Positions 55,836 through 62,351 of a stretch of DNA of 64,000 nucleotides are shown here, piece by piece. The stretch covers positions 168,388 through 232,387 of the forward strand of contig NZ_WUQZ01000004.1 of assembly GCF_009829075.1 (NCBI RefSeq), read 5' to 3'. The position numbers and the translations under genes were made by a program. The first letter of the stretch is position 1, and the number at the start of each line of letters is the position of its first letter. This DNA comes from Sphingobacterium composti (GTDB lineage Bacteria; Bacteroidota; Bacteroidia; Sphingobacteriales; Sphingobacteriaceae). The notes beneath the pieces are model-generated. The model did no database searches, was not told the origin of the DNA, and saw nothing but the letters and a program-made list of their open reading frames with translations.

Positions 55836-56249
55836 ATGAATCCAATACGAGTAACACTAGTAGAAGATAATGCTATCTTCTGTTTCTTATTTAAAAAATT
55901 TTTGGAAGATTATCCTTCCAGAAAAATCGTCGTTGAAGTTTTTTCAGATGGTAAAAAGGCTTGGGATCATTTTGTATCTATTCAAGGTCAGCCTGAATTA
56001 TTTCCCCAAATGATTTTCATTGATATTAATATGCCATTTATGAATGGCTGGGAGCTAATAGAAAATCTGGTGGTAAATGATTTTAATTTTATTAAGGAGA
56101 TTCCGAGTTATATTGTCAGTTCGTCGAAAAGTTCTTTAGATATAGGAAAATTTAAAGAATATAAATTTATCAAAGACTATATTATTAAACCAATTGATCG
56201 AGAAGGTATTTATGCAATTTTGGATAAATATCAAGAAGATCTTTTATGA
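55836..56249 (+). CDS. Single-domain response regulator (CheY-like)
   Basis: This 137-residue stand-alone receiver domain has the acidic pair Glu10-Asp11 (LVEDN), the phosphorylation site Asp63 (FIDINMP), the Ser pair in IVSSSKSS and the Lys in DYIIKP. There is no output domain, so it should act by protein contact, perhaps as a phosphate shuttle for the histidine kinases encoded downstream. It is the first gene of the cluster, and its stop overlaps the coding region that follows. Confidence 0.9.
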   Translation: MNPIRVTLVEDNAIFCFLFKKFLEDYPSRKIVVEVFSDGKKAWDHFVSIQGQPELFPQMIFIDINMPFMNGWELIENLVVNDFNFIKEIPSYIVSSSKSSLDIGKFKEYKFIKDYIIKPIDREGIYAILDKYQEDLL

Positions 56250-57078
56250 CCAAAATTATATATCAGTGGCATTAGTATTCAAAGAAGGAAGACCTGTAGT
56301 TCGATTAAGAGCCTTTAGAGCTATCGATGATCCAAAAACTTGTGAGAAATTTATCCAAGGACATGAACACGTGCTTACTGCAATAGGTGTGAAGAAGGTT
56401 ACATCATCCAAAAACGATTGGATGTATAATCCTGCGGCATTCGTTTTAATTGTCGAATCGCTGGATGGAGAAAATGTATACGGAGGGGCGCGGATACATG
56501 TTGCGGGAGGTTCTCAACCGCTTCCTATTGAGGAAGCTACAGGAAAAATGGATCCATCAATTTTTGATTTAGTATGGGACTATGCACAAGAAGGAACAGG
56601 AGAGGGGTGTGGCCTTTGGAATTCTAGAGAGATTGCGGGATATGGTATCGGTAGCATATTCCTTACACGTGCAGCAATTGCCATCTCTCCGCAGATAGGA
56701 ATCAAATCTTTATTTGCTTTATGTGCTCCATACACGATTAATCTTACAAAAAGTGTGGGATATAGACAAGAAACGAGTGTGGGTAATAATGGAACTTTTT
56801 ATTATCCTAAATTGGATCTTCTTGCTACTACGATGGTTCTTGATGATGTGGATTCGTTGTCATTAGCATCCGAAGATGATAGAAATGCGATATTAGCTTT
56901 GCGAAATAATTTGGATTGTACTCGGATAGAAGTGTTGCGTTCTAAGGAAATCGAGATTCAATATCAATTAGGTTTAGATTTTAAAGGAAATTGGAATTTA
57001 AATGAGGTGATTGCGAATCTGTCCAAACGAACAAAGCTTGATAATGATATTGATGATAATGATATCCAAATAATGTAA
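56212..57078 (+). CDS. GNAT / autoinducer-synthase-like acyltransferase, start uncertain
   Basis: This protein of about 280 residues has a core that resembles GNAT and LuxI-type N-acyltransferases: VALVFKEGRPVVRLRAFRAIDDPKTC at the front, FVLIVESLDGENVYGGARIH, and the acyl/acetyl-CoA loop region REIAGYGIGSIFLTRAAIAISPQIGIKSLFALCAPYTINLTKSVGYR (about 145-190). No solved function is known to me. The start is unclear: in frame there are ATG 56194, ATG 56212 and GTG 56266, all overlapping or near the response regulator end. An ATG at 56246 overlaps the regulator stop as ATGA but is one base out of frame. It is likely to make a small acylated molecule or modify a partner (inference). Confidence 0.7.
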   Translation: MQFWINIKKIFYDQNYISVALVFKEGRPVVRLRAFRAIDDPKTCEKFIQGHEHVLTAIGVKKVTSSKNDWMYNPAAFVLIVESLDGENVYGGARIHVAGGSQPLPIEEATGKMDPSIFDLVWDYAQEGTGEGCGLWNSREIAGYGIGSIFLTRAAIAISPQIGIKSLFALCAPYTINLTKSVGYRQETSVGNNGTFYYPKLDLLATTMVLDDVDSLSLASEDDRNAILALRNNLDCTRIEVLRSKEIEIQYQLGLDFKGNWNLNEVIANLSKRTKLDNDIDDNDIQIM

Positions 57079-57100
57079 CTACAAGTTATAGCATATAGAT

Positions 57101-58183
57101 ATGAATGATAAATTTGAGAATTCCTATCCCTATAAACCTATTTTCTTCCATAACTCAAATATTGAAGATAGTGCTCGTCTATCGGCACTAAAAAGTAGTG
57201 AAGAAGTAGTATTTCTTTATGATGAAATAGAAAGACAGATCGCAGAACTCATACGCTGTCGCTTTCCAATGGGAATTCCGGAAGATAAAGCTAAAAGCTT
57301 ACATAATGAAATTTTGGATGGTAAAGATTTGACAGATTATGGAGTTTGGGTGTATTATCCTTGGCGTAAAACATTAGTACATCTGTTAGATGAAAAAGAA
57401 TTTGTAGAGGTACGGACTAATCGTAATCAGCTAAAAATAGCAAAGGAAGAACATGAGGAACTTGCAAACAAAACTATTGGAATAATAGGTCTGTCTGTTG
57501 GGCAATCTATTGCATTGACAATTGCGATGGAAAGAATTTGCGGACGTTTGAGACTTGCAGATTTTGACGCATTAGATCTAAGTAATATGAATAGACTGCG
57601 GACTGGAGTATTTAATATATCTGTGCCTAAAGTAGTAATTGCAGCTAGAGAAATCGCGGAAATTGATCCATTTTTGGATGTAGAAATTTATCCTGAAGGC
57701 GTATTAGATTCTAATTTTGATTTGTTTTTGAATGGCGATGGTGGTGTTGATGTACTGGTAGAGGTATGTGATAGTTTTGATGTTAAAATTAAAAGCAGAT
57801 TAGTAGCACGAAAACACCATATACCTGTCGTTATGGATACTAATGATAGAGGAATGTTGGATATTGAACGTTTTGATTTAGAGCCAACGAGACGAATATT
57901 TCATGGATTAGCTGGAGATTTATCAGTAGAAAAGCTAAGTAAGTTGACGCAAGGAGAAAGAATGGGATATCTGATGAAGATTGTAGATGCTGCAAGTTTA
58001 TCCCAAAAGATGAAAATGTCGCTTCCTGAGATAAATAAAACCTTGGCATCCTGGCCTCAGTTGGCCTCAGAGGTAGTTTTAGGAGGAGCTATTACGACCA
58101 CAGTATGCCGAGAGATTTTACTGGGTCATGATGTGAAATCTGGACGACACTATTTGGATGTGGAAAAATTAATCAAAGATTAA
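57101..58183 (+). CDS. E1/ThiF-like adenylyltransferase, Rv1355c-type without nitroreductase domain
   Basis: This 360-residue protein has a helical N-terminal part of about 120 residues (EIERQIAELIRCRFP, YYPWRKTLVHLL) and a ThiF/MoeB-fold domain. The nucleotide loop is IIGLSVGQSIALTIA (about 127-141), in place of the usual GxGGxG. The adenylation residues are conserved: Asp154/Asp156 and Asn164-Arg165 in LADFDALDLSNMNRLR, Lys177 in VPKVV, and Asp224. There are no CxxC zinc pairs and no clear catalytic Cys. The arrangement matches the front half of Rv1355c/MoeY-type proteins, which carry a nitroreductase-like domain after it; here that domain is absent. It probably activates a carboxyl group by adenylation. 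Confidence 0.8.
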   Translation: MNDKFENSYPYKPIFFHNSNIEDSARLSALKSSEEVVFLYDEIERQIAELIRCRFPMGIPEDKAKSLHNEILDGKDLTDYGVWVYYPWRKTLVHLLDEKEFVEVRTNRNQLKIAKEEHEELANKTIGIIGLSVGQSIALTIAMERICGRLRLADFDALDLSNMNRLRTGVFNISVPKVVIAAREIAEIDPFLDVEIYPEGVLDSNFDLFLNGDGGVDVLVEVCDSFDVKIKSRLVARKHHIPVVMDTNDRGMLDIERFDLEPTRRIFHGLAGDLSVEKLSKLTQGERMGYLMKIVDAASLSQKMKMSLPEINKTLASWPQLASEVVLGGAITTTVCREILLGHDVKSGRHYLDVEKLIKD

Positions 58184-58194
58184 TAAGAATTGAT

Positions 58195-60360
58195 ATGAAT
58201 ATTAGAACTATTCTATTAATATTATATGTTTTCACAGTTTGCACTCTTGTCCAAGCAAATCCACCTTTCGTATTTACAGAGGAGGCTGGTAATAATTATA
58301 TAGGTAGACATATTTCCATTTTAAAGGATCCAACTCGTACATTAACCTTTTCGGAGATTCAACAATTAAAAGATAAATTCATTGACATAGATCAGGATGT
58401 GCCAAATTTGGGAGTAGGGGATGCTACTAATTGGATTAGATTTACTGTAAAAAATGAATCAGATATTGAAAATTTAATTGTCAATCTTTCCCAAACAAAT
58501 ATTGATGAAGTTGTTTTTTATACAGTAAAAAATGGAATTGTAGATAGTATAGTTTCTGAGTCAAGTGGGAGTGGTAGTGGATTCATTTTCTCACATCAAT
58601 TCTCTTTGTTCGATCTTCCAATAAAAAAAGGAGAAGAAATAGAGTGTTATTTTAAGTTATATAGTCATACGCAAATATCAGCACCAATATCCATTCATTG
58701 TCAAAAGAGTTTATTTAATAAGCTTTTAAATACTGATATATTTTCGGCTATATATATAGGACTCATGCTTTCGATGATACTATATAATATTTTCCTTTAT
58801 TTTACGACACGCGAGTCACATTATTTTTCATATGTAAATTATATTTTTTGGGTTGTCGTAGCGCAATTAGCCATACTAGGTTTACTTGCACCATTATTGG
58901 AAATTGAAAATGATTGGATTAAAAGTAGATTACTAACATTTACAGGAGCAACCTCAGGTATTGCTGCGATATTTTTTGTAAAATCATTTTTGCAGACTTC
59001 TGAAAATTCTCCCAACTTCAATAAGCTACTGAATATCTTTATTCTTGGCTATCTAATTGCAATTGTATTATTAGGAGTAGGATTCATTACACCAGCATAC
59101 AAAATGGTAAACTTTGTGGCTGGCGGAGGAAGTGCCATTGTGCTAATTTTGGCATTTCGACTTTCACGTCAAAAATATAGACAAACAAAGTATTTTCTTT
59201 TTGCTTGGTGTATTTTTTTGATTAGCGTTTTGGTCTATGTTTTGAAGGATTACAATGTTTTACCCTACAATTTTTTTACTTTACGATCTGTTCAAATAGG
59301 CTCATTTATTGAAGCTATACTTCTTTCCTTTGCATTAGGAGATAAGATAAATATCTACAGAAAGGAAAAGGAAGAGTCACAATCTAAAGCGTTGAAAATT
59401 TTACTTGAAAATGAGCGCTTGATAAGAGTTCAAAATACGGAGTTGGAGTTAAAAGTAAAAGAGCGAACAATGGATTTGACTGTAGCAAACGAATCTTTAA
59501 AAGCAACTTTGAAGAACTTGAAGGATACACAGTCACAGTTGGTAGAAGCTGAAAAAATGGCTTCATTAGGTCAGCTAACGGCAGGCGTGGCACATGAAAT
59601 TAATAATCCAATCAATTTTGTGACTTCAAATGTTACTCCATTGCGTCGTGATATTGATATGATATGGGAGGCAATAGGAGAATTTGAGAAATTGGCTTTG
59701 AATTCGGATTTATCAGTTAATGAAAAACAAAATTGGATTGCACAATATAAAGATGATTTAGACTTTGACTACGTCAAAACTGAGGTAGAATATTTGCTCA
59801 AAGGAATGCATGAAGGAGCAAGTCGTACAGCAGAAATAGTGAAGAGTTTGCGTGTCTTTTCTCGTGTTGATGAGGACACGTTGAAATTTGCTGATATTAA
59901 TGAAGGTGTGGAATCAACTATGGTAATCTTGAATAGTCTGGTAAAGGATCGCATTAATGTCATTAAAGAATATGGAGATATACCGTTTGTAGAATGCTAT
60001 GCGGGCAAATTGAATCAAGTTTTTCTTAATATCATAACCAATGCGATATACGCTATTGACAAGAAATTTCCAGCAAATTCAGGTGGTATTTTGAAAATTG
60101 AGACAAGTTTATTGGATAATGGTTCTTCGGTTGCTGTTAAAATTTCAGATAATGGCATTGGAATTCCTGAAGATATTAGGAACAAAATATTTGAACCATT
60201 CTTTACGACTAAAGATGTGGGTGAAGGGACAGGATTGGGGATGTCTATAGCTTATAATACTATTGACAAGCATAACGGAAAAATATGGATTGAATCTGTT
60301 TTGGGAGAAGGTACTACGTTTAATATAGTAATTCCAATCAAGCAGACTATTAACTCATAG
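58195..60360 (+). CDS. 7TMR-DISM sensor histidine kinase
   Basis: This 721-residue membrane kinase has a signal peptide (about 1-21), an extracytoplasmic 7TMR-DISMED2-type domain (about 25-170, with [36 protein letters not shown]) and a seven-helix 7TMR-DISM block (about 178-385). A coiled coil follows, then HisKA with His467 in [17 protein letters not shown] and a HATPase domain (N-box [33 protein letters not shown]). The DISM sensor is thought to bind carbohydrates or other small molecules. It follows the E1-like gene by 11 bases and has no receiver of its own. Confidence 0.94.
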
Positions 60361-60366
60361 CTTACT

Positions 60367-61449
60367 ATGGAAAAAATTGAAATTTTATATGTCGATGATG
60401 AAGTAAATAATCTACTGGGATTTAAAGCAAATTTCAGATTAGATTACATCATTCATATAGCTTCTAATACCAAAGAGGCAGAAAAGATTTTGGCAGAAAA
60501 TCCAAATATTAGAATAATTTTCTGTGATCATCGTATGCCAGATGAATTGGGAGTTGATTTTTTATCCAGAATTAAAAAAGAATATCCTAGACCAATTCGT
60601 ATACTATTGACCGCTTACGCGGATATGAGTGTGGTTATAGATGCGATTAATAAAGGAAATATCTTTAAGTTTGTTCGCAAGCCTTGGATGAACGAAGAAA
60701 TAATATCGTCAATAGAAGAGGCTAATAAATTTTATATAGCTACCTCACTTTTAGACATTCGTAACCAAGAATTGCAAAAAGCGTATGATGAATTGGATAA
60801 ATTCGCGTATAGTATAAGTCATGATTTGCGTGATCCATTGACGGGTGTGCTTTCAGCGATTACTTATGCTTTGGGGTATGATAAAGTGAAAGACATTCAT
60901 GAATTATTACTACTCATGCAAGGATCTATTTTGAAATTGGATCAATATATTGATAGTCTTAGAGATTACTATCTATTGAGAAGAGGCGAGTTGTTGCTAA
61001 AAGATATTGACTTTCATGAAGTTGCAAATAATTTAAGAGATTTTTATCAAGTATCGGTAGAAAGAACACAAATCGATTTTAAAGTTGATGTGGATCAAGC
61101 TGCAGATTTTAAATGTGATATCTCACTAATTGAACTCATCATCCACAATTTATTGAGCAATGCATTCAAGTATCAAAGAGAAGGTGAGCCTAATAAATTC
61201 ATTCATGTATCAATACATGTTGCTAAAGGTTTGGCAACAATTCAAGTAAAAGATAATGGTATTGGAATCCCCTTAGATGCTCAAGAAGAGATTTTTAAGT
61301 TATTCTATAGAGCGAGTACGCAATCACAGGGCATGGGATTTGGACTTTATAACGTACGTAGTGCATTAATTAAAATTAAAGGAACTATAGAAATCGAATC
61401 TGCATTAGGTGAAGGAACCACCTTTATAGTAAAAATTCTAAGTAAATAA
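60367..61449 (+). CDS. Receiver-histidine kinase hybrid
   Basis: This 360-residue cytoplasmic protein has an N-terminal receiver (Asp10-Asp11, phosphorylation site Asp54 in FCDHRMP, Lys in RKPW), a HisKA-like domain with His152 in YSISHDLRDPL, and a HATPase domain (NLLSNAFKYQ, DNGIGIPLDAQEEI, GMGFGLYNVRSAL). This inverse order (receiver before kinase) suits a phosphorelay intermediate between the DISM kinase and the single-domain receivers. It starts six bases after the DISM kinase stop. Confidence 0.93.
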   Translation: MEKIEILYVDDEVNNLLGFKANFRLDYIIHIASNTKEAEKILAENPNIRIIFCDHRMPDELGVDFLSRIKKEYPRPIRILLTAYADMSVVIDAINKGNIFKFVRKPWMNEEIISSIEEANKFYIATSLLDIRNQELQKAYDELDKFAYSISHDLRDPLTGVLSAITYALGYDKVKDIHELLLLMQGSILKLDQYIDSLRDYYLLRRGELLLKDIDFHEVANNLRDFYQVSVERTQIDFKVDVDQAADFKCDISLIELIIHNLLSNAFKYQREGEPNKFIHVSIHVAKGLATIQVKDNGIGIPLDAQEEIFKLFYRASTQSQGMGFGLYNVRSALIKIKGTIEIESALGEGTTFIVKILSK

Positions 61450-61451
61450 GC

Positions 61452-61487
61452 TTTCTCTTAAGACAAAAGCTTCTGTCTTAAGAGAAA
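61452..61487. terminator. Hairpin shared by the hybrid kinase and the convergent receiver
   Basis: A 14-bp perfect stem (61452-61465 and 61474-61487) with an eight-base loop begins three bases after the hybrid kinase stop. Most of it lies within the last codons of the convergent receiver gene (RQKLLS). No long T run follows on the plus strand, so it may stop transcription weakly. Confidence 0.6.
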
Positions 61488-61916
61488 TTCTAATTGTTCG
61501 TTTGATAGCTCTAGTTGAGAGAATTTTTCCATAGCAGATTTTCTATCTGCGTATATTTGATAAGCTCTTTGTATCGTGTCATCCAATTCCTTCTCATCCC
61601 AAGGTTTGGTCAAATAATGAAATATTTTACCTTTATTTACGGCATCAATTACAGCACTCATATCTGAGTAGCCTGTCAATAAAATTCGTATTGGCTCCGC
61701 ATTGATATCTATTACTTTTTCCAAAAATTCTACACCTGTCATTTCCGGCATTCTTTGATCTGTAATAATGATATCAATTGGTTTTTTCTTAACAATTTCT
61801 AGGGCAGCATCGCCGCTAATAGCAGTGTGTACATTATATTTTATGCGAAAGGTAGCTTTAAATGAAAACAAGTTATTCTCTTCATCATCTACATAAAGAA
61901 CTGATATTTTACTCAT
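61458..61916 (-). CDS. Response regulator, single receiver with helical tail
   Basis: This 152-residue protein is a receiver domain (Asp10-Asp11, phosphorylation site Asp53 in ITDQRMPEMTG, LLTGYSDMSA, Lys in LTKPWDEKEL) with a short amphipathic tail (KSAMEKFSQLELSNEQLEFLLRQ) that may form a coiled coil. The receiver is clearly related to that of the neighbouring hybrid kinase (VLYVDDEENNLFSFKATFRIKYNVHTA against ILYVDDEVNNLLGFKANFRLDYIIHIA), so the two come from a duplication. It is encoded on the opposite strand and converges on the hybrid gene. Confidence 0.92.
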   Translation of the reverse strand: MSKISVLYVDDEENNLFSFKATFRIKYNVHTAISGDAALEIVKKKPIDIIITDQRMPEMTGVEFLEKVIDINAEPIRILLTGYSDMSAVIDAVNKGKIFHYLTKPWDEKELDDTIQRAYQIYADRKSAMEKFSQLELSNEQLEFLLRQKLLS

Positions 61917-62351
61917 ATTGTTTTTTTAATAGATAGAATTTGTGATGTAGGAATGGCTTAATACTATTAATGTGGAAGCCAAGGTACGGAAAAAATATAA
62001 AAATGTAAAACATTTATTGAATATTAATATATTAAAACGTTTGTTTTCAGGTGTTTCTATGAAATTAATGTGTATTCGATAAAATTTTTTAAGATTTTCA
62101 GAGGTTGTAATTTAGTTTTTGAGGTAGCGTTTAAAATGATACTAATCGTTTTAATAAATATTTGCTTCTAGAGAGGTTAAAATAGTTTTGATGTTAGTGA
62201 ATTGAGTTGTAAAGTATCCCGCCAAAATATACTATTTTTAATTTTATAGGCTTAGCTTCCAATTCGTTAGGATTTGATGAAATCTAAGGCTTTAATTTTT
62301 CAATTTAAATCAATAGATTGGATAATAACCTACAAAATTATAAATAAACCT
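61917..62351. promoter_or_regulatory. Regulatory region with three CG-centred AT boxes
   Basis: This 435-base gene-free stretch contains AAACGTTT (62035-62042), AGCGTTTAAA (62126-62135) and AATCGTTTTAAT (62144-62155). The first is the same eight-base core as the LacI operator at 23835-23850; the others are half-site-like. They lie upstream of the AraC-type gene, while the divergent receiver gene starts at the left end. Confidence 0.4.

Follow-up and report, generated by a model that had tools for sequence, protein, structure and literature searches.

A conserved Bacteroidota locus joins a predicted LuxI-fold synthase and an exchangeable tailoring enzyme to a mosaic 7TMR-DISM kinase

The window analysed here is a 64,000-nucleotide stretch of the Sphingobacterium composti contig NZ_WUQZ01000004.1, from a host genome of 3.6 Mb in 82 contigs. 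At positions 55836–61916 it contains a six-gene locus in which two candidate biosynthetic enzymes lie beside a membrane histidine kinase, a receiver (REC)-kinase hybrid, and two lone receivers. As the original prediction from the sequence alone had proposed, five genes are tightly packed on the plus strand and a sixth converges from the minus strand; all six open reading frames are confirmed at the places reported earlier. Gaps of 16, 22, 11, and 6 nucleotides (nt) separate the plus-strand genes, and the convergent receiver gene is 8 nt off.

The locus begins with a lone receiver, REC1 (55836..56249, plus strand; Pfam Response_reg 8.9e-14), which is an accessory component. The second gene (56266..57078, plus) encodes a 270-residue protein that resembles N-acyl amino acid synthases in its predicted GNAT/LuxI fold and will be called the synthase. 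The third product (57101..58183, plus) is a putative ThiF/E1-like adenylating cyclase equivalent to the N-terminal half of the Rv1355c (TrzS) family (NCBIfam NF005901, 'Rv1355c family protein', E 6.6e-141; ThiF PF00899, 1.4e-12). It is followed by a 7TMR-DISM sensor histidine kinase (58195..60360, plus), the DISM kinase, which has the full DISMED2 (2e-22), 7TM-DISM (DISM_7TM, 1.5e-41), and kinase core (HATPase_c, 4.2e-24) architecture of its class. The fifth gene (60367..61449, plus) encodes a REC-HisKA-HATPase hybrid, the REC-kinase (Response_reg 3.9e-15; HATPase_c 9.3e-23; HisKA 2.2e-5, just below the cut-off), in which Pfam detects no sensor or membrane domain. The convergent gene (61458..61916, minus) encodes the second lone receiver, REC2 (Response_reg 7.8e-21). 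Every gene of the locus except the GNAT-like one is backed by Pfam.

The synthase most likely starts at GTG 56266, not at 56194 or 56212 as first proposed, because a GTG start and a length of 270 residues recur in the relatives L041, L042, L043, and L045. With this start, the synthase gene does not overlap REC1. The L050 synthase has a longer frame with a TTG start.

The gene set was followed in three collections. The first is an 80-locus set, the best 80 of at least 585 confirmed relatives (592 stretches), which is biased toward close relatives of the window. The other two are a family sample of 151 Sphingobacteriaceae genomes and a class sample of 395 genomes. Partners were called by profile, with one set of thresholds for relatives and control loci. 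The synthase, DISM kinase, REC-kinase, and REC2 all lie beside the ThiF gene in 50 of the 55 loci with room on both sides. The exceptions are L087 and L115, which have no kinases, and three Chitinophaga loci without REC2. Over the 80-locus set, the synthase is present in 75 loci (76 with a fusion in L087), the DISM kinase in 72, the REC-kinase in 68, and REC2 in 66, and three of the four loci lacking a synthase are cut-off contigs. None of 16 ordinary MoeB/ThiF (E1) control loci has any partner (309 frames). The linkage of the set is confirmed to exceed chance.

The same association holds in broader samples. Among 395 genomes of the phylum, 11 contain a strong ThiF relative (10 full, one a fragment at a contig edge), and in all ten full loci, nine and the window, its neighbours include the synthase, DISM kinase, and REC-kinase. 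In the other 178 of the 189 matching phylum genomes, all hits are weak, with E values no better than 1.8e-9, and presumably come from ordinary E1 proteins. Of 69 class-sample loci inspected, 66 have the DISM kinase no more than 9 kb from the synthase, and two of the other three are at contig ends. In the family sample, all 69 genomes with both ThiF and synthase carry them on a single contig, separated by 502 nt or less. Kinases thus adjoin the E1-like and GNAT-like genes in related genomes, as the original prediction anticipated. Its conserved gene order stands in part: the set of synthase, DISM kinase, REC-kinase, and REC2 is kept, but REC1 is not core, ThiF can be replaced, and two gene orders occur, with the synthase first in 47 of 75 loci of the 80-locus set and ThiF first in 28.

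Two loci display unusual arrangements of the enzymes. In a Saprospiraceae metagenome-assembled genome, ThiF and synthase are fused into one protein of 632 residues (L087:6409-8307), of which residues 397–616 match the synthase profile with an E of 3.7e-49; the stretch holds no module kinases. In L226 (7038-8479), two tandem synthase genes are located between a ThiF-oxidase and the DISM kinase.

REC1 lies outside the conserved core, since phmmer finds a close match beside the synthase in only five of the 80 loci (L041-L044 and L110), all from Sphingobacterium. In many other loci the lone receiver is a different one, usually following the REC-kinase gene. REC2 is encoded on the opposite strand in all 66 loci of the 80-locus set that have it (69 genes) and is co-directional in two class-sample loci, L207 and L230. 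Its C-terminal tail, with the consensus kL..sN.QLEFlLRQkLLs, is kept over 70 sequences, including that of the window.

The window synthase belongs to no Pfam family, and ten members scanned at a limit of E 5 give no Pfam autoinducer-synthase match; one of the ten weakly matches a family of unknown function. Its profile has no significant match among PDB sequences. The AlphaFold model has a mean confidence (pLDDT) of 89.8. In Foldseek, its top match is FeeM (2g0b, E 2.7e-8), followed by MesI, BjaI, and RpaI, at 15–17% sequence identity. VIA-align gives Z scores of 15.8 for BjaI, 15.7 for FeeM, 15.2 for RpaI, and 14.6 for LasI. The model thus supports a GNAT/LuxI fold like that of acyl-transferring N-acyl amino acid and N-acyl homoserine lactone (AHL) synthases. 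The earlier assignment of the protein as GNAT/LuxI-like stands by fold, and the fold check for an acyl-CoA pocket points to acyl-transferring enzymes. FeeM, the best match, differs in that the locus synthase is longer and has a fixed neighbourhood with kinases. LuxI-type AHL synthases share the fold and not the Pfam sequence family.

The ThiF-like protein aligns with positions 4–340 of the 722 positions of NF005901, and scores 470.9 bits against a cut-off of 476 that is set for the whole protein. The window protein is without the C-terminal flavin oxidase half. No related oxidase is found elsewhere in the host genome with a profile built from three fused oxidases (best E 0.059). Among the matches listed, its nearest named relatives are proteins of Sphingobacterium species, at 70–75% identity. 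It is 43–46% identical to the homologous domain in Rhodococcus, Mycolicibacterium, and a Streptomyces plasmid record, and the adenylation-site residues, including Cys223-Asp224 and Arg165, are invariant across the window protein and the three actinobacterial homologs. Asp224 probably corresponds to Asp217 of TrzS.

Rv1355c is TrzS, which makes N-acyl tryptazolones together with the acyltransferase TrzA, according to the accessible part of PMC12856293. In the scheme given there, tryptophan is first N-acylated, the ThiF domain then cyclises the product at the expense of ATP, and the oxidase domain desaturates it with O2. When oxygen is limited or the oxidase site is damaged, the cyclised, non-oxidised product builds up (same source). 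FeeM and BjaI are listed among the closest structures of TyzA in the accessible part of PMC10404671. The synthase and ThiF-like protein look like the first two enzymes of an oxazolone pathway, because the ThiF family is that of TrzS and the predicted synthase fold is that of FeeM and BjaI, as in TyzA. The pair is not without precedent; it matches the acyltransferase and ThiF cyclase of OxzAB/TyzABC/TrzAS, minus the flavin oxidase (accessible parts of PMC12856293 and PMC10404671). A role in E1/ubiquitin-like conjugation was rejected on the grounds that the E1-like protein belongs to the Rv1355c/TrzS branch rather than to one of the conjugation enzymes; no search aimed at a ubiquitin-like partner was made. 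Taibaiella soli contains a 693-residue ThiF protein (L074:9947-12028); its C-terminal half has no match to the oxidase profile or to any Pfam family above the cut-off.

ThiF is not essential to the module. The synthase profile matches 86 of the 151 Sphingobacteriaceae genomes, and ThiF reaches 360 bits or more in 70. One genome has ThiF without the synthase, as a contig-edge fragment, and 17 of the 86 synthase-bearing genomes have no strong ThiF. In 16 of these 17, a methyltransferase of about 255 residues occupies the place of ThiF; in the remaining one, the slot between synthase and DISM kinase is filled by a FAD_binding_4 oxidase that is weakly GlcD-like (L163:8201-9811). Pfam identification covers four of the 16 slot methyltransferases and the L163 oxidase. 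The same loci retain the DISM kinase (17 of 17), the REC-kinase (16 of 17), and REC2 (16 of 17).

The synthase occurs in 76 of the 395 class-sample genomes. Subtraction of the window genome and of G611, G651, G726, G737, G775, and G824 leaves 69 loci, of which 40 contain ThiF-oxidase in the slot, 21 ThiF, six a methyltransferase, one an ICMT-family enzyme (L228; PF04140, 1.5e-19), and one, L203, no recognised enzyme. Five loci, L036-L038 and the contig-edge L191 and L223, were assigned by hand to ThiF-oxidase, for which the automatic tally gave none or other (printed 'FDO'). In the 80-locus set, the flavin oxidase is fused to ThiF in 38 loci. Against solved structures, the slot methyltransferases resemble general S-adenosylmethionine (SAM) methyltransferases, 3mgg being the best match, so carboxyl methylation is not evident from the sequence and the ICMT-family enzyme of L228 is the sole pointer to it. 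On the synthase tree (162 rows), the methyltransferase label needs 14 changes, of which at least nine are forced by well-supported branches, and all slot types together need 36 changes versus 68.6 for shuffled labels. The oxidase label needs seven changes on the ThiF tree (92 rows), at least three of them forced. The slot has therefore changed hands many times.

The DISM kinase consists of a sensor half (residues ~22–390), composed of a RetS-like periplasmic domain and a seven-transmembrane (7TM) domain, and a kinase core (residues ~455–721). The sensor model has a pLDDT of 88.0. Its best fold match is the periplasmic domain of RetS (4.8e-7), with a far weaker match to human WLS (3e-4). WLS holds a lipidated protein, which is no more than suggestive here.

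The starting set for trees of seven module parts was 124 loci that have the synthase, DISM kinase, REC-kinase, and REC2, leaving out L034 (the same genome as L092) and the outlier L200. Slot types represented singly (FAD oxidase, ICMT, and none) were dropped to give 121 loci, and removal of near-identical loci gave the 117 on which the trees were built. The fewest changes of slot type were then counted on each tree, with three states or with methyltransferase versus the rest. The three-state count is 11 for the 7TM and 18 for the periplasmic domain, versus 26 for the kinase core, 27–28 for the REC-kinase, 29 for the synthase, and 29 for REC2; shuffled labels need 49 on the periplasmic tree. 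The methyltransferase label changes once on the 7TM tree and four times on the periplasmic tree, versus 12 on the kinase core, 13–14 on the REC-kinase, 12 on the synthase, and 13 on the REC2 tree. When all parts are resampled to 125 columns, the two sensor parts average 11.6 and 17.8 changes and the other five 27.5–30.1. In the 62 loci with the order synthase–slot–DISM, both sensor parts need three changes each and the remaining parts 13–18. The kinase core rejects a single clade of the 18 methyltransferase loci with a p-AU of 2.7e-35.

The break can be located along the kinase. Segments of 100 residues need 22 and 18 changes at residues 11–145, 11–16 inside residues 81–425, 24 at residues 361–460, and 27–34 from residue 396 on. 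Inside residues 221–390, the distal 7TM, the count is 11–12 (one for the methyltransferase label), and at residues 11–110 of the periplasmic domain it is 22 (seven). Segments of the synthase itself need 26–31. The DISM kinase is a mosaic whose two parts meet where the 7TM ends. Two loci of the same genus as the window illustrate the pattern. Compared with L154, of the methyltransferase type, the window is 89% identical in the synthase, 71% in the kinase core, and 75% in REC2, but identity drops to 28% for the 7TM and to 20% for the periplasmic domain. Compared with L050, of the ThiF type, the respective values are 89%, 69%, 78%, 76%, and 50%. The sensor half is often exchanged together with the slot enzyme. 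This hints at a so far undescribed family of systems for self-sensing or for signalling from cell to cell.

Partial correlations between the proteins were calculated over 65 loci. The strongest, 0.57, connects REC2 with the DISM kinase core; it is 0.61 in synthase-first loci and 0.72 there without Sphingobacterium. REC2 is probably the phospho-acceptor of the DISM kinase, as judged from this covariation. The synthase and the 7TM are correlated at 0.29 over all loci and at 0.55 and 0.52 within each gene order. Co-evolution of the synthase with REC2 (0.49 overall) was considered and dropped: in neither gene order does the pair rank among the top nine (0.24 in one subset), and gene order therefore probably explains the overall value.

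The reading we favour, with modest confidence, is that the locus is a module of synthase, tailoring enzyme, and receptor kinase that works as an autoinducer-type circuit, with a putative product, ligand, and output. The GNAT/LuxI-fold enzyme would, as its fold suggests, use acyl-CoA or acyl-ACP to acylate the amine of an amino acid. The ThiF-like enzyme would then adenylate the carboxylate left free on this N-acyl amino acid and, by analogy with its family, most likely close it to an oxazolone. This is probably the reverse of the original scheme, in which the E1-like enzyme activates a carboxylate before the GNAT-like enzyme links it. The product would stay saturated or leave as a derivative, because ThiF has no fused oxidase and a profile search finds none related elsewhere in the genome. 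The slot enzymes of other lineages (ThiF with flavin oxidase, SAM methyltransferase, ICMT-family) may likewise mask or alter the carboxylate end to yield a neutral, AHL-like molecule. The product would presumably be exported, sensed, and used between cells. The periplasmic/7TM half of the DISM kinase may bind it, a step consistent with the co-segregation of sensor and slot. Phosphate would pass to receivers, among which REC2 is the leading candidate for the partner of the DISM kinase. As the module has no DNA-binding output, REC2 presumably works by contacting other proteins or via a protein encoded elsewhere.

A wider reading is put forward more tentatively. It holds that chemical communication of this kind is widespread in Bacteroidota: LuxI-fold enzymes make N-acyl amino acids, the carboxylate is masked in various ways (oxazolone, dehydro-oxazolone, methyl ester), and the matching receptor half is co-exchanged on a shared kinase core, so that separate signalling groups arise. 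If so, the oxazolones without an explained role would be signals, at least in Bacteroidota.

Several observations weigh against the autoinducer-type account. Ordinary acetyltransferases reach Z scores of 12–15 against the synthase model, near the 14.6–15.8 of AHL synthases and FeeM. Kinases are absent from L115, L200, and L087, and L203 has no recognised slot enzyme; the enzymes can therefore occur without the sensor, and the sensor without a slot enzyme. Beyond a lone receiver (54 of 80 loci), no neighbour family recurs within 5 kb in more than 10 of the 80 loci, and no conserved exporter or regulator was therefore found. In ThiF-first loci, the correlation between REC2 and the DISM kinase core drops to 0.25, and that between synthase and 7TM falls to 0.14 in synthase-first loci without Sphingobacterium. 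On the 7TM tree, the sequences linked to methyltransferases fall together on one side of a branch, but its support is only 6. In the 59 loci with the order ThiF–synthase–DISM, the sensor tracks the presence of the oxidase no better than other parts do (11 changes versus 10–12). Coupling is therefore confined to loci whose slot and kinase genes are directly adjacent, as they are in all 18 methyltransferase loci analysed. The earlier idea that the DISM kinase senses the product of the enzymes draws independent though indecisive support from the co-segregation of sensor half and tailoring enzyme, which the ThiF–synthase–DISM loci do not show.

A transcription factor or exporter hidden among the neighbours was rejected as a part of the module, since clustering of neighbours within 5 kb in the 80 loci shows only the lone receiver, the next cluster comprising 10 loci. 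An AraC-type gene at 62274 falls outside the 14 largest neighbour clusters listed.

Among the alternatives, regulated lipid production without self-sensing is unlikely but the best of them. The DISM kinase would sense an envelope or nutrient cue, and the relay would control an N-acyl amino acid or oxazolone serving as a membrane lipid, stress metabolite, or surfactant. The RetS-like periplasmic domain agrees with such a role, and sugar-type ligands are discussed for the RetS-like family. Loci with the enzymes and no kinases fit as well. According to the accessible part of PMC12856293, cells are enriched in tryptazolones and the supernatant in acyl-tryptophans; roles in stress are also considered there. 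However, this explanation does not predict that the sensor half, rather than the kinase core, follows the slot enzyme.

Under neutral hitch-hiking, which we consider unlikely, the slot gene and the 5' half of the kinase gene would be exchanged as a block between conserved flanks, and their pairing would be functionless. Homologous recombination in the flanks could move everything between them as a unit, with no selection for a match, and the mean identity over 65 loci is higher in the flanks (kinase core 60%, synthase 55%) than in the middle (periplasmic domain 28%, 7TM 42%). The limitation of co-segregation to loci where slot and kinase genes abut is also as expected. Physical linkage is needed for the sensor–slot pattern, and block exchange is a real rival to matched exchange of enzyme and sensor. 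However, co-segregation does not weaken farther from the slot gene: the distal 7TM shows it most clearly and the proximal periplasmic part less so, although the divergent periplasmic part is noisier and this may explain some of the contrast. In addition, the synthase, equally near the slot gene, is not carried along.

An antibiotic or antagonistic metabolite, with the relay serving producer immunity or dose control, is very unlikely: exchangeable tailoring enzymes would suit chemical warfare, and N-acyl tyrosine derivatives of Stieleria are antimicrobial (accessible part of PMC12856293), but no conserved transporter or immunity gene was found among neighbour families within 5 kb in the 80 loci.

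To our knowledge, little small-molecule cell–cell signalling is known in Bacteroidota, and we know of few ligands for the 7TMR-DISM kinases, which form a large receptor class. Oxazolone-type enzymes are tied here to a receptor-type kinase in Bacteroidota, including named isolates, which makes it directly testable whether these molecules are signals. The role of N-acyl oxazolones is called a major unresolved question in the accessible part of PMC12856293. Joint exchange of enzyme and sensor half would add a non-peptide case of pherotype-like evolution.

Comparable arrangements are known in other phyla. In the LuxM/LuxN and CqsA/CqsS systems of Vibrio, a synthase gene lies beside the gene for a membrane receptor histidine kinase, although the LuxM and CqsA sequences are not known to be related to the locus synthase. 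A synthase fixed beside a membrane kinase is likewise seen here in gene neighbourhoods. Unlike those systems, the locus has no output gene of the LuxU/LuxO type and its tailoring enzyme is exchangeable. In ComQXPA and agr, receptor variation goes with the signal-making enzyme. The DISM kinase shows a comparable contrast of variable sensor and conserved core, and in loci with adjacent slot and kinase genes its sensor half goes with the slot enzyme in a way that resembles ComQXPA pherotypes; ComP of Bacillus has a variable N-terminal and a conserved cytoplasmic part (accessible part of PMC4008528). ComQXPA and agr differ in being Gram-positive systems with peptide signals, isoprenylated in ComQXPA, and a DNA-binding regulator, whereas the locus probably makes an acylated small molecule and has no DNA-binding output.

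The closest systems are OxzAB (reportedly described by De Rond et al. in 2021), TyzABC, and TrzAS of Pseudoalteromonas, Mycobacterium, and Rhodococcus, which, like the locus, place a LuxI/FeeM-fold acyltransferase beside an Rv1355c-type ThiF cyclase. They differ from it in three respects: the conserved set of the locus includes a membrane kinase relay, no oxidase is present in the window, and methyltransferases can hold the ThiF slot. The trzAS genes adjoin cyclic di-GMP (c-di-GMP) genes, and the terms 'histidine kinase' and 'two-component' are both absent from the accessible text of PMC12856293. PMC12479983 describes clusters for N-acyl tyrosines that include ThiF and nitroreductase genes; its accessible text lacks the word 'histidine' and mentions no kinase. 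Among open-licence PMC papers, no published description was found of the receptor-kinase linkage, the exchangeable slot, or the mosaic kinase. The enzymes themselves are relatives of those in a described pathway.

The actinobacterial relatives show further arrangements. The synthase has only a weak sequence link to an actinobacterial candidate acyltransferase (hmmsearch E 0.003; hhalign probability 9.6%). A Streptomyces plasmid encodes an oxidase-less ThiF of the Rv1355c family followed by an ordinary GNAT acetyltransferase, with a MerR-type regulator gene upstream (L133:4818-7715), perhaps an analogous pair; profile comparison finds this GNAT protein unrelated to the synthase. On a Rhodococcus plasmid (L134:3849-8097), a TrzS homolog is located near a GGDEF gene, like the mycobacterial locus beside c-di-GMP genes (accessible part of PMC12856293).

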